Assembly (NCBI GenBank): GCA_020054095.1
Contig: JAGVMA010000059.1
Span: forward strand, 1-46,699
Source: Bacteroidia bacterium
GTDB lineage: Bacteria; Bacteroidota; Bacteroidia; JADZBD01
Length of the DNA: 46,699 nt
Direction of reading: 5' to 3'
Shown here: positions 8,175 through 24,970 of the stretch, piece after piece
Layout: every line of letters begins with the position of its first letter
How positions within the stretch are numbered: the stretch's first letter is position 1
Translations under genes and position numbers: made by a program
Notes under the pieces: model-generated
What the model was told of the DNA's origin: nothing
Databases searched by the model: none
Seen by the model: only the letters and a program-made list of their open reading frames with translations

Positions 8175-10292
8175 TTGAAAATAAATTTACTCCATATCTC
8201 CTCAAATGCTCGTATTTATAGTGCGCTTTTTTTGCTTTTTTTATCATCGACATTTTTATCAGAGGGCTATTCGCAGGTTACAGACTCGTTGGTGAAAACT
8301 AAGATTGCTGAATTAGAGAAAATTTGGCTTTCGCATATTAATGATGCAACAGTAAATTTTAAACAGAAAGATATTCCTCAAACACAATTGCTGCTTACCA
8401 ATATGATTAATTATGGTGATACGGCTTGGGTTAATATCAATAATTCGCTTTACAATGCACGCATAAATCAGCTTAAAAATGATGTGGGCGTGGACTTTAA
8501 CACTAATTATATTGAAAATTTTAATACCGGAATTAATACCGAAGATGATTTGATATACAGACGCAGGTTACAAACCGGATTGGAATGGGACATCTTAAAA
8601 AATGGATATTATGCCAGTAAATTAAAGCAGCAACAGTTGCAAAACGAATTGCTTATTCAAACGCTGCAAAACGCAAGTCAAGTGAGTTCGAGCAGTTATG
8701 TGAAAAACGCATCGGCTGTTATTTATTTATACAATGCTCAAAAAATTAGTCTGCTCGAAAAGCGACTAACCATCGTTAACCAGCAATTGAAATTTGCTAA
8801 TGACTTAAATAAACTAAAACAGATTCCGTACATAGAAGTGATGCGCGTGGTGCAATCGCAAACGGACATTGCCGCTATGCTTCAAGTTTATAAAGGTTAT
8901 AACGATTTGTTGGCAGCTCATTACAGTAGCTTTAAAACCGATGAGATTTATCCGCTTTGCGATATTGATGTAAATAAATTGCTTCAATCACACGCAGCAT
9001 TAAAAACCAATGCGCTACGAGACAGTATTGTGAACTTAGAAATTAAAAATCTTGATTTAGAATCTTCGTTTATTAATAACATAGGTTTGCGAACTGCATT
9101 GCGTTATAATTTATTTGACCCTTTTTATGTTGAGGGTAATCAACGCGATTTTTTTTCTGCCTCATTAAGTGTTACTATGCCTATTCCGTTTGGTACAAAA
9201 TCGGCTAAAAAAGTGAACGATGCAAAAGCGAAATTATTGCAGTACAACAATCAGCATAACAATAACGATGAATTTTTTTCAGAAGCAGTAAATGGGTTTT
9301 ACGAATACCGATACAAGCTGAAGCAATACGTTAATTTTTATCAGAAAACATTTATTTACAAAGAGCTTATTAGGATAGATAAAGTAAAGCAGCAATTTCA
9401 GGATGTGGAATTTAATCCGCTAAAAGCGCTTACGGTTATAGATGATTATTTGTCAATTCAAATTGAAATGCTTGACTTGCGCCAGCAAATGTTAATCCAA
9501 TTGCTTAAAATGTCGGTTAAATACCCTGAAGTTCAGGTGCAAAATATTATCAAACCTTTTTCACTCGACTCGCTCGCAATAAAAGCAAATTTTATCTCGG
9601 CAAATCTTTCGGTTTACACATGGAGCGATGCACTTGCTAATTTTAAACCCAGCTTTTTGAGCAATTATGTGATGCTGAATAAAATTTCGGCTGTAATACT
9701 ATCTTACAAAAAAAACGGCTCAAATGCCGAACAAGTGAACCTGTTTTTTGATTCGCTGCTTTTAAATGGTGTTAATGTGGAATTGCTGGTGGGAAATAAT
9801 AAATTAACAGCCAAAAATTTTAAACGCAGTATTGATTCACTTATTGCGCTTACAAAAGGCAGGGCAATAGCTGCACTACACTTAGATGTGGAGCCGCACA
9901 CCTTTGATGATTTTAAGCAAAACGAAGGAAAGTACATGGATGCTTATATTGAAATGCTGAAAAATGCAAAGGCGTATTGCACAGAAAAAAATATAAAACT
10001 GAATGCTTCAATTCCGGTTTATTTCAAAGAAAAGTATTTAACTGCCATTTATTCGCTTTGCGATAAAATATATTTAATGACGTATGAGACAACTAAAGCC
10101 GAAAGTGTCGTCAATAGAATAAAAGAAGAATTAATACTCGGTAAATCTAAAACCGTGATTGCGATAAGAACAAATGATTTTGCTAATAGAAATGAATTGG
10201 ACGAGATGATAAAAAAGCTGCAAGAGCTTACCGGAGTTTTTGATTTTGCAATTCACGATTTAGATAGTATGATAAAACAGGACAATAAATGA
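8175..10292 (+). CDS. TolC-like outer-membrane protein fused to a TIM-barrel glycoside-hydrolase-like domain
   Basis: This 705-residue protein starts at a TTG. No ATG is available near the N terminus, and the signal peptide (about residues 12-34) requires this start. Residues 60-465 look like a TolC-type channel: long helices rich in Gln and Lys, a YRRRLQTGLEWDILKNGYYAS segment near 130, and a second beta segment (FFSASLSVTMPIPFGTKSAKKVNDAKAKLL) near 325. Residues 475-700 look like a TIM barrel related to GH18-type enzymes, with LHLDVEPH near 568 (a possible acid Glu) and IYLMTYE near 632. PgaA/PgaB and PelB/PelA combine export with hydrolysis using separate proteins; here both appear to be in one. 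Downstream are an HlyD-like adaptor and a GT2 synthase. The domain calls rest on pattern recognition by eye. Confidence 0.65.
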   Translation: MKINLLHISSNARIYSALFLLFLSSTFLSEGYSQVTDSLVKTKIAELEKIWLSHINDATVNFKQKDIPQTQLLLTNMINYGDTAWVNINNSLYNARINQLKNDVGVDFNTNYIENFNTGINTEDDLIYRRRLQTGLEWDILKNGYYASKLKQQQLQNELLIQTLQNASQVSSSSYVKNASAVIYLYNAQKISLLEKRLTIVNQQLKFANDLNKLKQIPYIEVMRVVQSQTDIAAMLQVYKGYNDLLAAHYSSFKTDEIYPLCDIDVNKLLQSHAALKTNALRDSIVNLEIKNLDLESSFINNIGLRTALRYNLFDPFYVEGNQRDFFSASLSVTMPIPFGTKSAKKVNDAKAKLLQYNNQHNNNDEFFSEAVNGFYEYRYKLKQYVNFYQKTFIYKELIRIDKVKQQFQDVEFNPLKALTVIDDYLSIQIEMLDLRQQMLIQLLKMSVKYPEVQVQNIIKPFSLDSLAIKANFISANLSVYTWSDALANFKPSFLSNYVMLNKISAVILSYKKNGSNAEQVNLFFDSLLLNGVNVELLVGNNKLTAKNFKRSIDSLIALTKGRAIAALHLDVEPHTFDDFKQNEGKYMDAYIEMLKNAKAYCTEKNIKLNASIPVYFKEKYLTAIYSLCDKIYLMTYETTKAESVVNRIKEELILGKSKTVIAIRTNDFANRNELDEMIKKLQELTGVFDFAIHDLDSMIKQDNK

Positions 10293-10296
10293 AGCA

Positions 10297-11406
10297 ATGA
10301 AGAGCGTATATTTTAAAAGGAAAAACACATTGCTCAGAACGGTTAACGAAACGAAACCGCTTGTTAAAAATTATAACATAGATAGATATATTTATTTTAT
10401 TTTTTTGGCAGTACTCCTTCTGTTGCTTGGTTATTACTTGTTTTTTAAGTGGCTATACGTGCAAGCCGATGGACAAGTTTTGTTTGAAAACGTGCGCATA
10501 AGAATTACTGACGATTGCCGAGTAGTGCAACTTTACAAGGAGGAAGGCGATACTGTTTTAAAAGGCGATACACTTTTTGCTTATTACGAAGATAGCGATG
10601 AAGGTAACAATGGTGGTGGCTTTGGCAGTGGATTTTCTACCGGTGCATTTTCAGGCACTACTTATGCTAACGATATGGATTGGATAGCAAAAGAAATATA
10701 TAACCTTAACAAAAAAGTATCGCTCAATAAAATTGAAATAAACGAAAACTCTGTTCTAAGAAAAAGTTATGAAGGTGAATTAGAACGCATAAAAAACGAA
10801 GTGATATTAGATGCTTTGCCACACAGCAGGTTAGAGAGTGTAAAAAATGAAATAGCACGACTGAAAACCAATATTGCAAAATTGAAACAAGAAAACAGAG
10901 AACTGCAATCGCTGGTGAGGCAGTTAAAAGAGATGGCAACTACAGGCAAAAAGCCAAGTAAGAGTGTTAACCTCACATTTTCGGGTGGTGGCAACGGTGG
11001 CGGTGGAAACGATGACGAACAAAAGAAATATTTTATTTCACCGCTCGATGGCTTGGTTAATCGCATTTATGTTTCTGAATTTGAAGTGGCGTTAAAAACC
11101 GAAGAGATAATGAGCGTACAGCGCAGAAAAAAAATAATGATAAAGGCCTATTTTGAGCAAGCTAATGTGGATGACATTGTGGAGGGCGATACAATGACAA
11201 TTACATTCCCTGATGGAACAAAAGGGAAAGGATATTTAAAGCGAATGTACTTAGGCACTTATCCCTTGCCCGAAGAGTTTCAAAAAAGATACGAGCCCGT
11301 TAAACGCACAATTGCAGGTGATATTTATCCGGCAGATTCAAACGAAGCAAAAAAATGGGTGTTGTTTAATAAATTAAGTGTTGAACTAAGAAAATACAAA
11401 TATTAA
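10297..11406 (+). CDS. HlyD/Alg44-like periplasmic adaptor
   Basis: This 369-residue inner-membrane protein has one transmembrane segment (about residues 30-52) with most of the chain in the periplasm. A lipoyl-like half follows it (VQLYKEEGDTVLKGDTLFAYYE near residue 75). A Gly-rich linker and a coiled coil of about 85 residues come next, around 130-215. A second Gly-rich linker leads to the returning lipoyl half (FISPLDGLVNRIYVSEFE near 246) and a barrel segment. This is the HlyD membrane-fusion layout, also found in Alg44, the partner of the alginate synthase Alg8. A TolC-like gene ends four bases upstream and a GT2 synthase follows, so it probably links the synthase to the outer-membrane channel. 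Confidence 0.78.
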   Translation: MKSVYFKRKNTLLRTVNETKPLVKNYNIDRYIYFIFLAVLLLLLGYYLFFKWLYVQADGQVLFENVRIRITDDCRVVQLYKEEGDTVLKGDTLFAYYEDSDEGNNGGGFGSGFSTGAFSGTTYANDMDWIAKEIYNLNKKVSLNKIEINENSVLRKSYEGELERIKNEVILDALPHSRLESVKNEIARLKTNIAKLKQENRELQSLVRQLKEMATTGKKPSKSVNLTFSGGGNGGGGNDDEQKKYFISPLDGLVNRIYVSEFEVALKTEEIMSVQRRKKIMIKAYFEQANVDDIVEGDTMTITFPDGTKGKGYLKRMYLGTYPLPEEFQKRYEPVKRTIAGDIYPADSNEAKKWVLFNKLSVELRKYKY

Positions 11407-11408
11407 AA

Positions 11409-12842
11409 ATGTTATCAGTTTCAAAATCTACAAAAGCAATAATTGAGGGCAACAAAATAGATGTTGACAATACCCTTTTTTATGTGATTGAAAGTTACAC
11501 GGAATTCAAGTTAGAACACATGATGGGTTATGATGCATTAATTATAGATGCGCAAGACAATTTTTTTACTCGCCACATTCTAAAAAAACTTCGTTCGAGT
11601 TTTAATCACGAATATTATTTAAAACCCATTTTTTTATTGAACCCTCGCGAAACAAACGACCCGATAGTGAAAGGATTAAACGATGGAATTATTTTTTCGC
11701 TTGATCAGGTAACCGAACTTACAAATAAAGTAAAACAGCTTTTTTTTAACAGCACTCAAATATCGTATAACACACCGCTCACTTTTGAAGCGCAAGTGGT
11801 GAAAAAAGTATTTGATTATATGTTTACGAGAGACATAAAATCGCTAACGCCAATGGTAGATATGAATTCTTCCGTAGGCTTTTCGTGGCCGGAAATATCG
11901 GTGAATTTTGAAGCGCATGAAGATGCACAAGTGCTTGAGATTTTAGATTATGCCGAACGCGAAGGCTACGTGTGGCCCGATTTTGAAGAGCGTGTTTATT
12001 TGTGCAACAACTGCTACAATGGCTATTTAATGTATCGCGAAGTTTGTCCTCACTGCAATTCATCTCACATTAGTTCGCAAGATTTGGTTCATCACTTTCC
12101 GTGCGCTTATGTGGGGCCGATAGCTGATTTTAAAAACACTATTGATAATACATTATCGTGCCCAAAGTGCCACAAAAACTTACGTCACATTGGTGTAGAT
12201 TATGATAAGCCATCGGTAATAAATCATTGCAATAGTTGCGATAAAAGTTTTCAGGATTTTTATATAAAAGCCAAGTGTTTATCATGCAGTAACGATGTGG
12301 AAGTACAATATTTAATTTCAAAAAATATATACAAATACAAACTCACTAAAAAAGGACGTGCAGTAGCCGTAAGCGGAATGATGAATGCTGCCGAAGTGGT
12401 GGAAGAAATACAAGGTACAATAGCATTGGATACTTATAAAATAATGCTCCATTATCAAATAGAAAGGATGAGAAACAACAAGTCGCTCAAATCATTTATT
12501 ATGATAATGAACCTCGAAAATATTTTTGAACTCTATAATAAAATTGGAAACAAAGCATATCGTAAATTACTGGAAGATATTGTGATGCTGGTTCGCGAAA
12601 ATATAACACCTTCAGATTATATTTCTATCGAAAGCCAATCAACAATGCATTTGTGCCTTAATGATGTGGAGCCCTATCATGTAGATTACATGGTGCGCAC
12701 CATTACACATAAACTTAAAAAAACCATTGCAGATAACTTTAATAATTTCGAGCTTGTGATGCGCATCGAGCAACAGCAGTTGCAATCTTCAACAAGTGCC
12801 GACAAACAAATTATAGCGCTTTCAAAAATTTTATTTGAATGA
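11409..12842 (+). CDS. Pseudo-receiver / zinc-ribbon / degenerate GGDEF regulatory protein
   Basis: This 477-residue cytoplasmic protein has three visible parts. Residues 20-115 look like a receiver fold (YDALIIDAQDN, then KPIFLLNPRE). Residues 198-305 hold five CxxC-type pairs (CNNC, CPHC, CPKC, CNSC, CLSC) plus scattered histidines, implying several zinc sites; this resembles the TackOD1-type metal-binding domains found with signalling proteins. Residues 355-465 align by eye with a GGDEF domain (IMNLENIFELYNKIGNKAYRKLLEDI), but the GGDEF signature is replaced by IESQSTM, so catalysis is unlikely. Its start lies two bases after the adaptor stop, and its end overlaps the synthase by four bases. 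I infer that it senses a metal or nucleotide and controls the synthase. Confidence 0.65.
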   Translation: MLSVSKSTKAIIEGNKIDVDNTLFYVIESYTEFKLEHMMGYDALIIDAQDNFFTRHILKKLRSSFNHEYYLKPIFLLNPRETNDPIVKGLNDGIIFSLDQVTELTNKVKQLFFNSTQISYNTPLTFEAQVVKKVFDYMFTRDIKSLTPMVDMNSSVGFSWPEISVNFEAHEDAQVLEILDYAEREGYVWPDFEERVYLCNNCYNGYLMYREVCPHCNSSHISSQDLVHHFPCAYVGPIADFKNTIDNTLSCPKCHKNLRHIGVDYDKPSVINHCNSCDKSFQDFYIKAKCLSCSNDVEVQYLISKNIYKYKLTKKGRAVAVSGMMNAAEVVEEIQGTIALDTYKIMLHYQIERMRNNKSLKSFIMIMNLENIFELYNKIGNKAYRKLLEDIVMLVRENITPSDYISIESQSTMHLCLNDVEPYHVDYMVRTITHKLKKTIADNFNNFELVMRIEQQQLQSSTSADKQIIALSKILFE

Positions 12843-14149
12843 TAGAATACATAGAAGAGTTTTTAAACTATCTGTCCACTATCGGGCCTGATAAACTTAT
12901 TCGTGTATTTTGGTTTTTTTTCATTTTTGAGTTTTTTAGATTTTTTATTTTAGAATTAGCTGCATTGCTCATTTGGCGATTAAAAATGTGGCTGATTGAA
13001 GATAAACTTTCTGAAGCCCGAAAAACAATTTGGAAAAAAAAACCACTTATTTCTGTTATTGTTCCGGGCAGAAACGAAGGGAAAAATATTTACAAATTGG
13101 CAATGTCGTTGCGGGAGCAAACTTATAATAACTATGAACTGATAGTGGTTGACGATGGCTCAGATGATGACACCGAAATAATTTGCCGGAGCCTTAATCA
13201 GCTCGGACATATAGATTATTTTTTGCGTAACGATGTGCGTGGTGGAAAAGCATCGGCAGCTAACCTTGGGCTTAGAATGGCAAAAGGCGATATTATTGTT
13301 CACCTTGATGCCGATTGCTCGTATGACCGAGATGCGATTGAAAATATTATTATGCCATTTTTTCTGGATGAGCGAATAGGTGCTGTGGGTGGAAATGTGC
13401 AGGTGCGAAATTACCGAGAAAGTTTGTGCGCCACTTTGCAAGCAATTGAATACACCGATACAATTTCTGTAGGTAGGATTGCATCAAGCGAGCTTGGAAT
13501 TTACCGTGTAATATCGGGTGCATTTGGTGCCTTTAGAAAACAAGCACTCGACCGTGTGGGTGGCTGGGATATAGGTCCGGGACTTGACGGAGACATTACC
13601 GTGAAAATTAGAAAACTTGGTTATAAAATACATTTTGAACACACCGCTGTTTGCCAAACAAGTGTGCCTGTTACGTTTAAGAAGCTAATTAAACAGCGCT
13701 TGCGTTGGGATAAATCACTTATCCGTTTCAGATTGAGAAAGCATAACGATGTGTTTCTGCCTAACCAATCTTTTAAGTGGGGAAATTTTATTTCATTCGT
13801 AGAAAATGTAACCTATAACTTAGTGCTTAACATTAAGTGGTACGTTTATATTATTGATATGGCAATAAGTTTCACAAGCCAAATTGCATTTATCATCCCT
13901 ATGAACATCATACTCTATACAACTAATAATTATCTGAAATACATCGTGTTTTCAATTTTCCGCGACCGCAAGAATGAACCCACCGGCTATTTTTTAATAT
14001 ACATGCCGTGCATGGTCATTTATTTTGGATACTATTTGCGCATTGTTAGAACTGTGGCTTACATCCAAGAACTGTTTTTTAAATCATCTTACAAAGACTC
14101 TTGGAATCCGGCAAAAACATCGCGACATGCAAAAGCACTTAAAATTTAA
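12839..14149 (+). CDS. Processive GT2 polysaccharide synthase (PgaC/Alg8/NodC-like)
   Basis: This 436-residue membrane glycosyltransferase has the signature of processive GT2 enzymes: VVDDGSDDD near residue 102, DADCS near 157, GLDGDIT near 249, and QRLRW (the QxxRW motif) near 285. A long hydrophobic stretch at 17-47 precedes the catalytic domain. Further membrane segments lie at about 325-400. It should polymerise a beta-linked sugar from a UDP- or GDP-sugar and move it across the inner membrane. The DGD triad replaces the more common ED pair. There is no PilZ domain. The upstream TolC-like, HlyD-like and regulator genes form one operon with it. The polymer type cannot be read from sequence. 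Confidence 0.88.
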   Translation: MIEYIEEFLNYLSTIGPDKLIRVFWFFFIFEFFRFFILELAALLIWRLKMWLIEDKLSEARKTIWKKKPLISVIVPGRNEGKNIYKLAMSLREQTYNNYELIVVDDGSDDDTEIICRSLNQLGHIDYFLRNDVRGGKASAANLGLRMAKGDIIVHLDADCSYDRDAIENIIMPFFLDERIGAVGGNVQVRNYRESLCATLQAIEYTDTISVGRIASSELGIYRVISGAFGAFRKQALDRVGGWDIGPGLDGDITVKIRKLGYKIHFEHTAVCQTSVPVTFKKLIKQRLRWDKSLIRFRLRKHNDVFLPNQSFKWGNFISFVENVTYNLVLNIKWYVYIIDMAISFTSQIAFIIPMNIILYTTNNYLKYIVFSIFRDRKNEPTGYFLIYMPCMVIYFGYYLRIVRTVAYIQELFFKSSYKDSWNPAKTSRHAKALKI

Positions 14150-23354: not shown

Positions 23355-24086
23355 TTGGCAAGCACTAAAGAAATAGAAATTACAGGTTTTGAAACGATGG
23401 CATCGGCCATGGAATTTGTGGATAATTACAACAATTGGATTATCGGCAAATTTGAGCCCTATTGTGGTAATCGATTTTTGGAGATTGGGACGGGGCAGGG
23501 TAATTTCAAGAAAATGTTTTTGAGAAAAGCCGAAAAATATGTTTCAATTGACATAGATGAAGATGTAATAAAGCGTGCATCTGAACGTGATACAAAAGGC
23601 GTGTATGAAGTAGCCGATGCTGCGGCACCCAATTTCGTTGAAAAATTATCGCATCACAAAATAAATACTGTAATATGCGTAAATGTGTTAGAGCACATTC
23701 CTGACCATGAAAAGGCACTGAATAACATGATAAACGTATTGCAACCCGGTGGCCATTTGCTTTTGTTTTCGCCTGCATTTATGCATTTGTATAACGATTT
23801 AGATAAACTTGCCGGCCATGTGCGCAGATATAAACGCCATCAAATAAAAAATTTAATAAAAAACAACAGCAATGCCGAATTGGTGGTGAACGAGTATTTT
23901 AATCCGGTGGGTGCACTGGGCTGGTGGATTAATAAATTTAAAACACATAAAAACATTAATAGTGAAAATGTAAACAAGCAAGTTTTGTTTTTTGATAAAT
24001 ATGTGGTGCCTGTTTCTAAATTTTTTAACCCACTGATGAAATACATTTGGGGGCAATCTGTTTATGTTGTAATTCGAAAAAAATGA
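23355..24086 (+). CDS. SAM-dependent methyltransferase (class I)
   Basis: This 243-residue class I methyltransferase has motif I FLEIGTGQGNF near residue 42, an acidic YVSIDIDED near 61 and the post-motif INTVICVNVLEHIPDHEKAL near 110. GHVRRYKRHQI near 155 is typical of family members in polysaccharide clusters. The substrate is unknown, probably a lipid-linked or nucleotide sugar. The ORF starts at TTG; the first in-frame ATG is 14 codons in, just before the helix leading to motif I, so the TTG start is preferred but not certain. It overlaps the next gene by four bases and opens the polysaccharide operon. Confidence 0.8.
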   Translation: MASTKEIEITGFETMASAMEFVDNYNNWIIGKFEPYCGNRFLEIGTGQGNFKKMFLRKAEKYVSIDIDEDVIKRASERDTKGVYEVADAAAPNFVEKLSHHKINTVICVNVLEHIPDHEKALNNMINVLQPGGHLLLFSPAFMHLYNDLDKLAGHVRRYKRHQIKNLIKNNSNAELVVNEYFNPVGALGWWINKFKTHKNINSENVNKQVLFFDKYVVPVSKFFNPLMKYIWGQSVYVVIRKK

Positions 24087-24970
24087 TAAGTATTGTAATA
24101 CCCGCCTATAACGAAGAAACTGTAATTGCCGACACAATTAAAAGGTGCAAAGCTGTTATTGCTCAAATAGGTACTGCCGATTCGGAAGTTATTGTAGTGG
24201 ACGATTGCTCAAAAGACAATACCAAACAACTTGCAATAGATGCAGGCGCAATAGTAATTTCTCATCCACACAATGCCGGTTATGGTCGCTCATTAAAAGA
24301 TGGGATAAGAAAAGCAAAAAACGACACAATAATTATTACCGATGCCGATGGAACTTACCCTATTGAGCGAATGCCCGATTTGCTGAACGAATACAAAATA
24401 GGATTTGATATGGTAGTAGGCGCAAGGCAAGGAAAAAATTATGACGAATCGTTTAAGAAAAAAATTCTGCGCATTATTCTTAAAAACATGGTGCAATTTA
24501 CTGCCGGCCGCAAAATTGATGACATTAACTCAGGGCTTCGTATTTTTTCACGCAGCACCATTTTAAAATATTTCGATACACTTTGCGATACATTTAGCTT
24601 TACCACATCCGTTACACTTGCCTATATGATGACGGGCAAATTTGTGAAATACATACCCATTGAGTATCATTTAAGAGTAGGGAAAACAAAAGTTAAATTG
24701 TTTAAAGATACTTTGCGCACATTACAATACATTGTGGAGGCAATACTTTACTACAATCCCATTAAAATATTTTTAGTTTTATCGGGATTGGTTTTTTTAT
24801 TTGGGCTCTTAAATTTTGGCCTTGCTTTTTTAACTCACTTAACCAGCACTTTTTGGCTAGGAATAGGTTCTGTTTTGCTGTCTGCTTTAATTTTTGCAAT
24901 AGGTTTAGTTGCAGTGCTGCTGAAGCAGATTTTAATGAATCAGCGTTTTAAGCAAGACTTAGAAAAATGA
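24083..24970 (+). CDS. GT2 glycosyltransferase, polyprenyl-phosphate sugar synthase type (DPM1/GtrB-like)
   Basis: This 295-residue enzyme has a GT-A domain (IVIPAYNEETVI at the start, VVDDCSKDNT near 36, ITDADGTYP near 88, DINSGLRIFSR near 152) and two C-terminal membrane segments at about 230-290, the layout of enzymes that load a sugar onto polyprenyl phosphate. The start at 24083 overlaps the upstream stop (ATGA) and begins directly at the GT-A strand; the 12-codon extension to 24047 is not natural. The following gene encodes a GT-C membrane glycosyltransferase, the kind that uses such lipid-linked donors, so the two probably work as a pair. Confidence 0.87.
   Translation: MISIVIPAYNEETVIADTIKRCKAVIAQIGTADSEVIVVDDCSKDNTKQLAIDAGAIVISHPHNAGYGRSLKDGIRKAKNDTIIITDADGTYPIERMPDLLNEYKIGFDMVVGARQGKNYDESFKKKILRIILKNMVQFTAGRKIDDINSGLRIFSRSTILKYFDTLCDTFSFTTSVTLAYMMTGKFVKYIPIEYHLRVGKTKVKLFKDTLRTLQYIVEAILYYNPIKIFLVLSGLVFLFGLLNFGLAFLTHLTSTFWLGIGSVLLSALIFAIGLVAVLLKQILMNQRFKQDLEK

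Follow-up and report, generated by a model that had tools for sequence, protein, structure and literature searches.

A four-gene locus of a Bacteroidia bacterium pairing a TackOD1 regulator with a putative polysaccharide synthase and a proposed TolC/HlyD exit

The operon and its products

In contig JAGVMA010000059.1 of a Bacteroidia bacterium (assembly GCA_020054095.1), the whole 46,699-nucleotide stretch of which was analyzed and is called the window here, four genes lie on the + strand at positions 8175-14149. According to the open reading frame (ORF) list of the window, P1 (8175-10292), P2 (10297-11406), P3 (11409-12842), and P4 (12839-14149) follow one another with gaps of 4, 2, and -4 bases, just as a first-pass annotation made from the letters alone had described them. 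The cassette contains no gene for a pump of the ABC, RND, or MFS type. The four genes probably encode a self-contained synthase-dependent exopolysaccharide system exporting through a TolC/HlyD conduit, a reading to which I assign a probability of about 0.7. The interpretation given in the first-pass annotation was along these lines and, as a whole, is supported and largely holds.

P1 (705 amino acids) is predicted to be an exported outer-membrane channel of the TolC fold fused to a (beta/alpha)8 domain resembling glycoside hydrolase family 18 (GH18) enzymes and PgaB. The AlphaFold model of P1 has a predicted local distance difference test (pLDDT) score of 87, and its top Foldseek matches are the Klebsiella and E. 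coli TolC proteins (E 3e-11 and 5e-11). All the TolC, OprM, and CusC matches have E values from 1e-11 to 1e-8 with a probability of 1.00, and TolC-type beta strands are seen in the model at residues 106-114, 128-139, 304-316, and 324-334. Thus, the earlier description of P1 as TolC-like was borne out by the fold of the model. Pfam OEP is matched by 28 of 59 P1 relatives at E<=0.01, the best E value being 1.6e-8. In the VIA-align comparison of P1, the matches listed were occupied by those of the barrel, and no TolC entry was among them.

The C-terminal part of P1, from about residue 475 to 705, matches GH18 chitinases and the PgaB hydrolase with Z scores of 17-19.5. In the AlphaFold model, residues 476-705 (positions 9600-10289) form eight beta-alpha units, and the assignment of this region rests on secondary structure, fold matches, and invariant residues. 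What had been called a hydrolase-like tail has indeed a hydrolase-type fold; it is a whole TIM barrel. The C-terminal domain of PgaB (4p7o) aligns over 230 residues (Z 18.4, 3.6 A), and since several GH18 enzymes tie with PgaB, the comparison establishes the fold and not the specificity. Five residues, D571, E573, M635, Y637, and E638, are invariant in 59 sequences and belong to the motifs HLD571-x-E573-P and M635-x-Y637-E638, which suggests a working active site. Two relatives have a P1 with an N-terminal extension (L018:2034-4730 and L021:3080-5740), and the extension in L021 has a Pfam match to YCF48/BNR-type propeller repeats.

P2 (369 amino acids) is a HlyD-type periplasmic adaptor with a single N-terminal transmembrane segment (residues 32-50) and a coiled coil. 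It scores 26.5 bits against Pfam HlyD_3 (cut-off 22.2), in agreement with its first naming as HlyD-like. P4 (436 amino acids) is a membrane glycosyltransferase of family 2 (GT2). Its DD, DAD, GDGD, and QRLRW motifs are conserved across its family, so that the earlier assignment to the QxxRW-type GT2s, and with it a probable processive type, agrees with the motifs found. Among curated models, that of PgaC/IcaA (NCBIfam TIGR03937) comes nearest, but P4 scores 180.6 bits there, far short of the cut-off (422.3 bits); with the cellulose synthase model TIGR03030, the score is 38.9 bits and the cut-off 699.1. No PilZ domain was found in P4 by a Pfam search.

P3 (477 amino acids) has no transmembrane segment and appears to be a cytosolic regulator made of a receiver-like domain, a TackOD1 domain, and a degenerate GGDEF domain. 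The N-terminus aligns with receiver domains and has the aligned Asp47, but it does not match Pfam Response_reg. The TackOD1 domain (PF18551; 11790-12344) scores 170 bits against a gathering score of 32. Its five CXXC motifs and one HXXC motif are the set published for this zinc domain (PMC5847659), and all 11 cysteines and both histidines are invariant in 73 sequences. In the literature, TackOD1 is described from archaeal response regulators and from type IV pilus loci, and its function is called "obscure" (PMC5847659, PMC4858521). The published set and the relatives found here have receiver-TackOD1 architectures in common, whereas the link to a polysaccharide synthase is unlike the published contexts. 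The present locus offers TackOD1 a definite partner and a role that can be put to the test.

A model-based fold search gives residues 331-477 of P3 (12399-12839) a GGDEF fold, with 144 residues aligned to the GGDEF domain of DosC at Z 17.9 and 2.3 A, and diguanylate cyclases are also matched at the profile level (E 5e-6). However, the signature is replaced (..TPSDYISIESQST..): the region reads SIESQST in place of the GG(D/E)EF active site of diguanylate cyclases. At the I-site, Thr400 replaces the Arg and D403 is retained. Among 100 Bacteroidota copies, D403 is kept in 96 and R400 in 32, and three gammaproteobacterial copies retain RDTD. In one relative (L054), the GGDEF-like domain is entirely absent. 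P3 had been described as a zinc-ribbon/GGDEF-like regulator; the degenerate GGDEF stands, the zinc ribbon turned out to be the named domain TackOD1, and the N-terminus is receiver-like.

Is P3 a part of cyclic di-GMP (c-di-GMP) signaling? In the genome of the window organism (completeness 100, contamination 0.32), no GGDEF, EAL, or PilZ match was found at E<=1e-3, while identical searches gave matches in control genomes. The lack of PilZ noted earlier for the operon is thus true of the whole genome, which is also without GGDEF and EAL, and therefore true c-di-GMP control was judged unlikely in this organism. The I-site pattern would fit descent from a c-di-GMP effector that lost its binding site in organisms lacking this messenger, and the degenerate GGDEF protein may stand in for PilZ control.

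Distribution and variants

Of 99 genomes selected as relatives, 8 have TackOD1; across the phylum, 12 of 395 Bacteroidota genomes have it above its cut-off. A search with the P4 profile at E<=1e-80 returned exactly those 12 genomes. The P4-type GT2s score 678-777 bits and all other GT2s 215 or less, with nothing in between. Since 9 of the 12 carrier genomes belong to one family, they do not represent 12 independent events. In a GT2 tree, the TackOD1-linked GT2s cluster on short branches, but the branches of PgaC and BcsA are so long that they could not be placed, and no ancestry is claimed from this tree.

A scan of contigs of the GTDB r220 species set gave 346 pattern-matched stretches, 319 of which encode a P3 relative, and the best 80 were kept. 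These 319 were obtained with an alignment-based search; a search of the genome contigs with the single P3 protein gave no match. In 85 of 94 non-redundant loci, the genes lie in the order P1-P2-P3-P4 (TolC-HlyD-TackOD1-GT2) on one strand, with median gaps of 2, 3, and -1 bases, and no other order was seen. The remaining nine are incomplete, and every one of them runs into a contig end. Thus, the assessable loci are complete in 85 of 85 cases, which is not due to chance. The conservation that the first-pass annotation had required of its interpretation is therefore seen within the Bacteroidota, and it extends beyond them. Cultured carriers include Crocinitomix catalasitica, C. algicola, and Brumimicrobium glaciale.

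Several variants were found among the relatives. In a second class (family f71), the receiver domain of P3 is a true one, scoring 88.7 bits in L048. In L044, L048, L049, L050, L052, and L053, P3 is preceded by an ORF of about 110 amino acids, a homologue of the receiver-like domain with which P3 of the window begins. The standalone receiver-like ORF and the P3 with a true receiver reflect a domain swap between a separate gene and a fusion. The P3 relative of Palleronia also carries a receiver domain, and Hpt and kinase genes lie near the module in Palleronia and Roseibium. In the fetched stretches, a secreted member of the NodB-type polysaccharide deacetylase family is present in 14 loci, mostly nearby and on the same strand. 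A CotH-family gene is present in 19 loci, nearly always immediately downstream of P4. One example (L066:2863-5508) encodes a secreted protein with a CotH-kinase domain, a chitobiase C-terminal-like domain, and a type IX secretion tail.

Outside the Bacteroidota, relatives of P3 were found in a plasmid collection in Alphaproteobacteria, Gammaproteobacteria, and haloarchaea, and a TackOD1-GT2-HlyD module is present on alpha- and gammaproteobacterial plasmids. All 13 plasmid GT2 matches to P4 at E<=1e-40 fall in records with a TackOD1 match. In all 13, the TackOD1-type gene lies directly upstream of the GT2 gene (its region is split into two annotated ORFs in Alisedimentitalea), and the GT2 gene is followed by one of the HlyD type, of the TolC type, or annotated as hypothetical, as in Roseibium. 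The hypothetical protein following the GT2 of Methylocystis matches the P2 profile (E 2e-10), and a TolC-family gene lies two genes further. Aeromonas caviae plasmid pKAM329_3 (L160, NZ_AP024139.1, 2305-8127) has consecutive TackOD1-GGDEF, GT2, TolC (694 amino acids), and HlyD genes, and the tail of its TolC protein matches the P1 profile and has the HLD-x-E motif as in P1. Thus, the full set is not confined to one phylum. This plasmid is mobilizable and 29 kb in size, and the four-gene set adjoins partition and toxin-antitoxin genes. It follows that the system can probably move horizontally. A haloarchaeal TackOD1-type protein is encoded on a Haladaptatus plasmid (L159, 5992-6954) with no GT2 or HlyD gene annotated alongside, and the link to a synthase is thus not universal for TackOD1.

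Comparison with known systems

No name for a set of TolC, HlyD, GT2, and GGDEF proteins in Bacteroidota was found in the literature searched, which mostly does not include subscription journals and in which the term TackOD1 appears in a single paper. The statement of the first-pass annotation that no named system has this exact set therefore stands, but it had missed two close kin, Mxd and XcsAB-TolC, which are compared here by published description and architecture only. In Shewanella oneidensis, the mxdABCD genes encode a degenerate GGDEF protein MxdA (PMC3409153), the GT2 MxdB, and MxdC, which is homologous to efflux pumps (PMC3691769, PMC7666153). The mxd mutants lose three-dimensional biofilm (PMC7666153, PMC3409153, PMC3691769), and MxdA binds both CheY3 and c-di-GMP (PMC7666153). 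A degenerate GGDEF regulator, a GT2, and an efflux adaptor are common to both systems. The gene order of mxd matches the TackOD1/GGDEF-like, GT2, and HlyD order of Plesiomonas and Photobacterium, and the contact of CheY3 with MxdA parallels the receiver fusions on P3 relatives. In contrast, MxdD is described as lacking known homology, a fusion of TolC with a barrel is not described for Mxd, and the binding of c-di-GMP is unlikely in the window genome.

The cyanobacterial XcsAB-TolC cellulose system is the precedent for a TolC exit: its GT2, a HlyD-like adaptor, and TolC are proposed to act as a tripartite conduit (Maeda 2018, cited in PMC12430437). This conduit is unproven, and the 2025 review (PMC12430437) notes that T. 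vulcanus has the genes at separate places instead of in one operon. The set of GT2, HlyD, and TolC is the same, but XcsA has a PilZ domain, which P4 lacks, the hydrolase XcsC is a separate protein, and TackOD1 does not appear in the description given there. The PgaABCD system for poly-N-acetylglucosamine (PNAG) resembles the present one in that PgaC is the nearest model to P4, the P1 barrel is near the PgaB hydrolase domain, and a deacetylase gene lies near the cassette in the 14 loci mentioned above. It differs in its regulation and in having a PgaA-type porin with tetratricopeptide repeats (TPR) instead of TolC/HlyD; furthermore, P4 is far from the PgaC cut-off, and there is no PgaD here. 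A precedent for the pairing of GT2 and HlyD is the rhizobial BgsBA mixed-linkage beta-glucan synthase, which combines a GT2 with a HlyD-domain partner, a putative exit channel (PMC9495663). However, c-di-GMP binds to the C-terminus of that synthase, and no TackOD1 or TolC gene is described in its operon. As for the cellulose synthases Bcs and CelA, P4 neither reaches the TIGR03030 cut-off nor has their PilZ domain.

Proposed mechanism and alternatives

In known synthase-dependent systems, the polymer leaves via a dedicated porin, and control is mostly by c-di-GMP. I judge the present operon to represent a widespread and previously undescribed form of synthase-dependent polysaccharide export. 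In the scheme that I infer for polymer identity, export route, hydrolase activity, P3-P4 contact, and regulation, P4 would use a nucleotide sugar to build a beta-linked chain and thread it across the inner membrane. P2 would conduct the chain across the periplasm into P1, whose TolC trimer would serve in place of the beta-barrel/TPR porin that Pga, Bcs, and Alg use. At the channel mouth, chains may be trimmed or cleared by the TIM barrel that each P1 subunit would have at its C-terminus in the periplasm; elsewhere, PgaB, BcsZ, PelA, or AlgL has this role. P3 would be the cytosolic switch: its receiver-like domain may take the signal, and the module of TackOD1 and degenerate GGDEF may activate P4 by protein contact, independently of c-di-GMP in this genome. 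The sugar is most likely an N-acetylhexosamine; a PNAG-like polymer is a first guess with about even odds, because of the kinship of P4 with PgaC, the kinship of the barrel with GH18 enzymes and PgaB, and the nearby deacetylases in relatives. A broader idea, somewhat short of even odds, is that TackOD1 may be a dedicated protein switch of an unrecognized class of processive GT2s across Bacteroidota and Proteobacteria. Its fullest form would have a TolC exit with its own glycan hydrolase and would use receiver domains instead of c-di-GMP and PilZ. Since all parts lie in four adjacent genes and some carriers are cultured, the idea of a TolC exit is directly testable.

Several observations weigh against an exopolysaccharide system of this composition. 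The window P1 scores 19.9 bits against Pfam OEP, below the gathering score of 22, and therefore a TolC fold and not Pfam membership is claimed here. The tail of P1 is short or absent in L043, L045, and L051, so the barrel is not universal. In L043 and L045-L047, where P1 is short-tailed or tail-less, a nucleotide-sugar dehydrogenase gene lies between P2 and P3; those read directly in the cassette (L043:5256-6623 and L045:7716-9083) belong to the UDP-glucose/GDP-mannose dehydrogenase family. This arrangement hints at a polymer containing uronic acid, and thus the polymer probably varies between lineages. The window operon itself has no deacetylase gene. In addition, a TolC gene is missing beside the HlyD gene in the modules of Plesiomonas and Photobacterium and in most of the alphaproteobacterial ones.

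Which other explanations deserve attention? The barrel of P1 could be a non-catalytic guide that binds glycans, like the chitinase-like lectins, with the rest of the system unchanged. The top fold match of the barrel, 1jnd, is the imaginal disc growth factor-2, a chitinase-like protein, and the GH18 signature is only partly retained; however, the invariance of D571, E573, M635, Y637, and E638 goes beyond the needs of folding, and I regard this guide as the less likely form of the barrel. It is quite improbable that the GT2 is non-polymerizing and transfers a single sugar, or a few, to a lipid carrier or an exported molecule, with TolC/HlyD exporting the resulting glycolipid or glycopeptide. 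Many GT2s are non-processive, and in ten relatives P1 is directly preceded by an additional, short GT2 (316-389 amino acids), whereas QxxRW and GDGD are conserved in P4, the closest curated model is a polymer synthase, and a GH18/PgaB-type barrel fused to the channel better suits a polymer. Moreover, the cassette has no pump to power TolC/HlyD.

The synthase might also belong to an ordinary c-di-GMP-controlled exopolysaccharide system, in which P3 is an effector that binds the messenger at the I-site, as proposed for MxdA. The GGDEF fold, the conservation of D403 and in part of R400 in Bacteroidota, the RDTD of the gammaproteobacterial copies, and the binding of c-di-GMP by MxdA (PMC7666153) are in line with this. 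On the other hand, T400 and the loss of the GGDEF motif in the window copy speak against it, as do the lack of any GGDEF, EAL, or PilZ match in the near-complete genome and, in L054, the absence of the whole GGDEF-like domain; this is the least probable of the three. A plain drug efflux cassette was also considered and rejected, since the synthase and TackOD1 always co-occur in the sample and the cassette contains no pump.

As for the surroundings of the operon, the upstream neighbor on the opposite strand looks like dapD, and the downstream neighbor, 21 bases 3' of the operon, looks like ruvX. Both flanking genes are housekeeping-like, and therefore the operon most likely comprises only P1-P4. 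Elsewhere in the window, a long run of + strand genes extends from 23355 to 43492 and includes a further GT2 match at 24074-24460.

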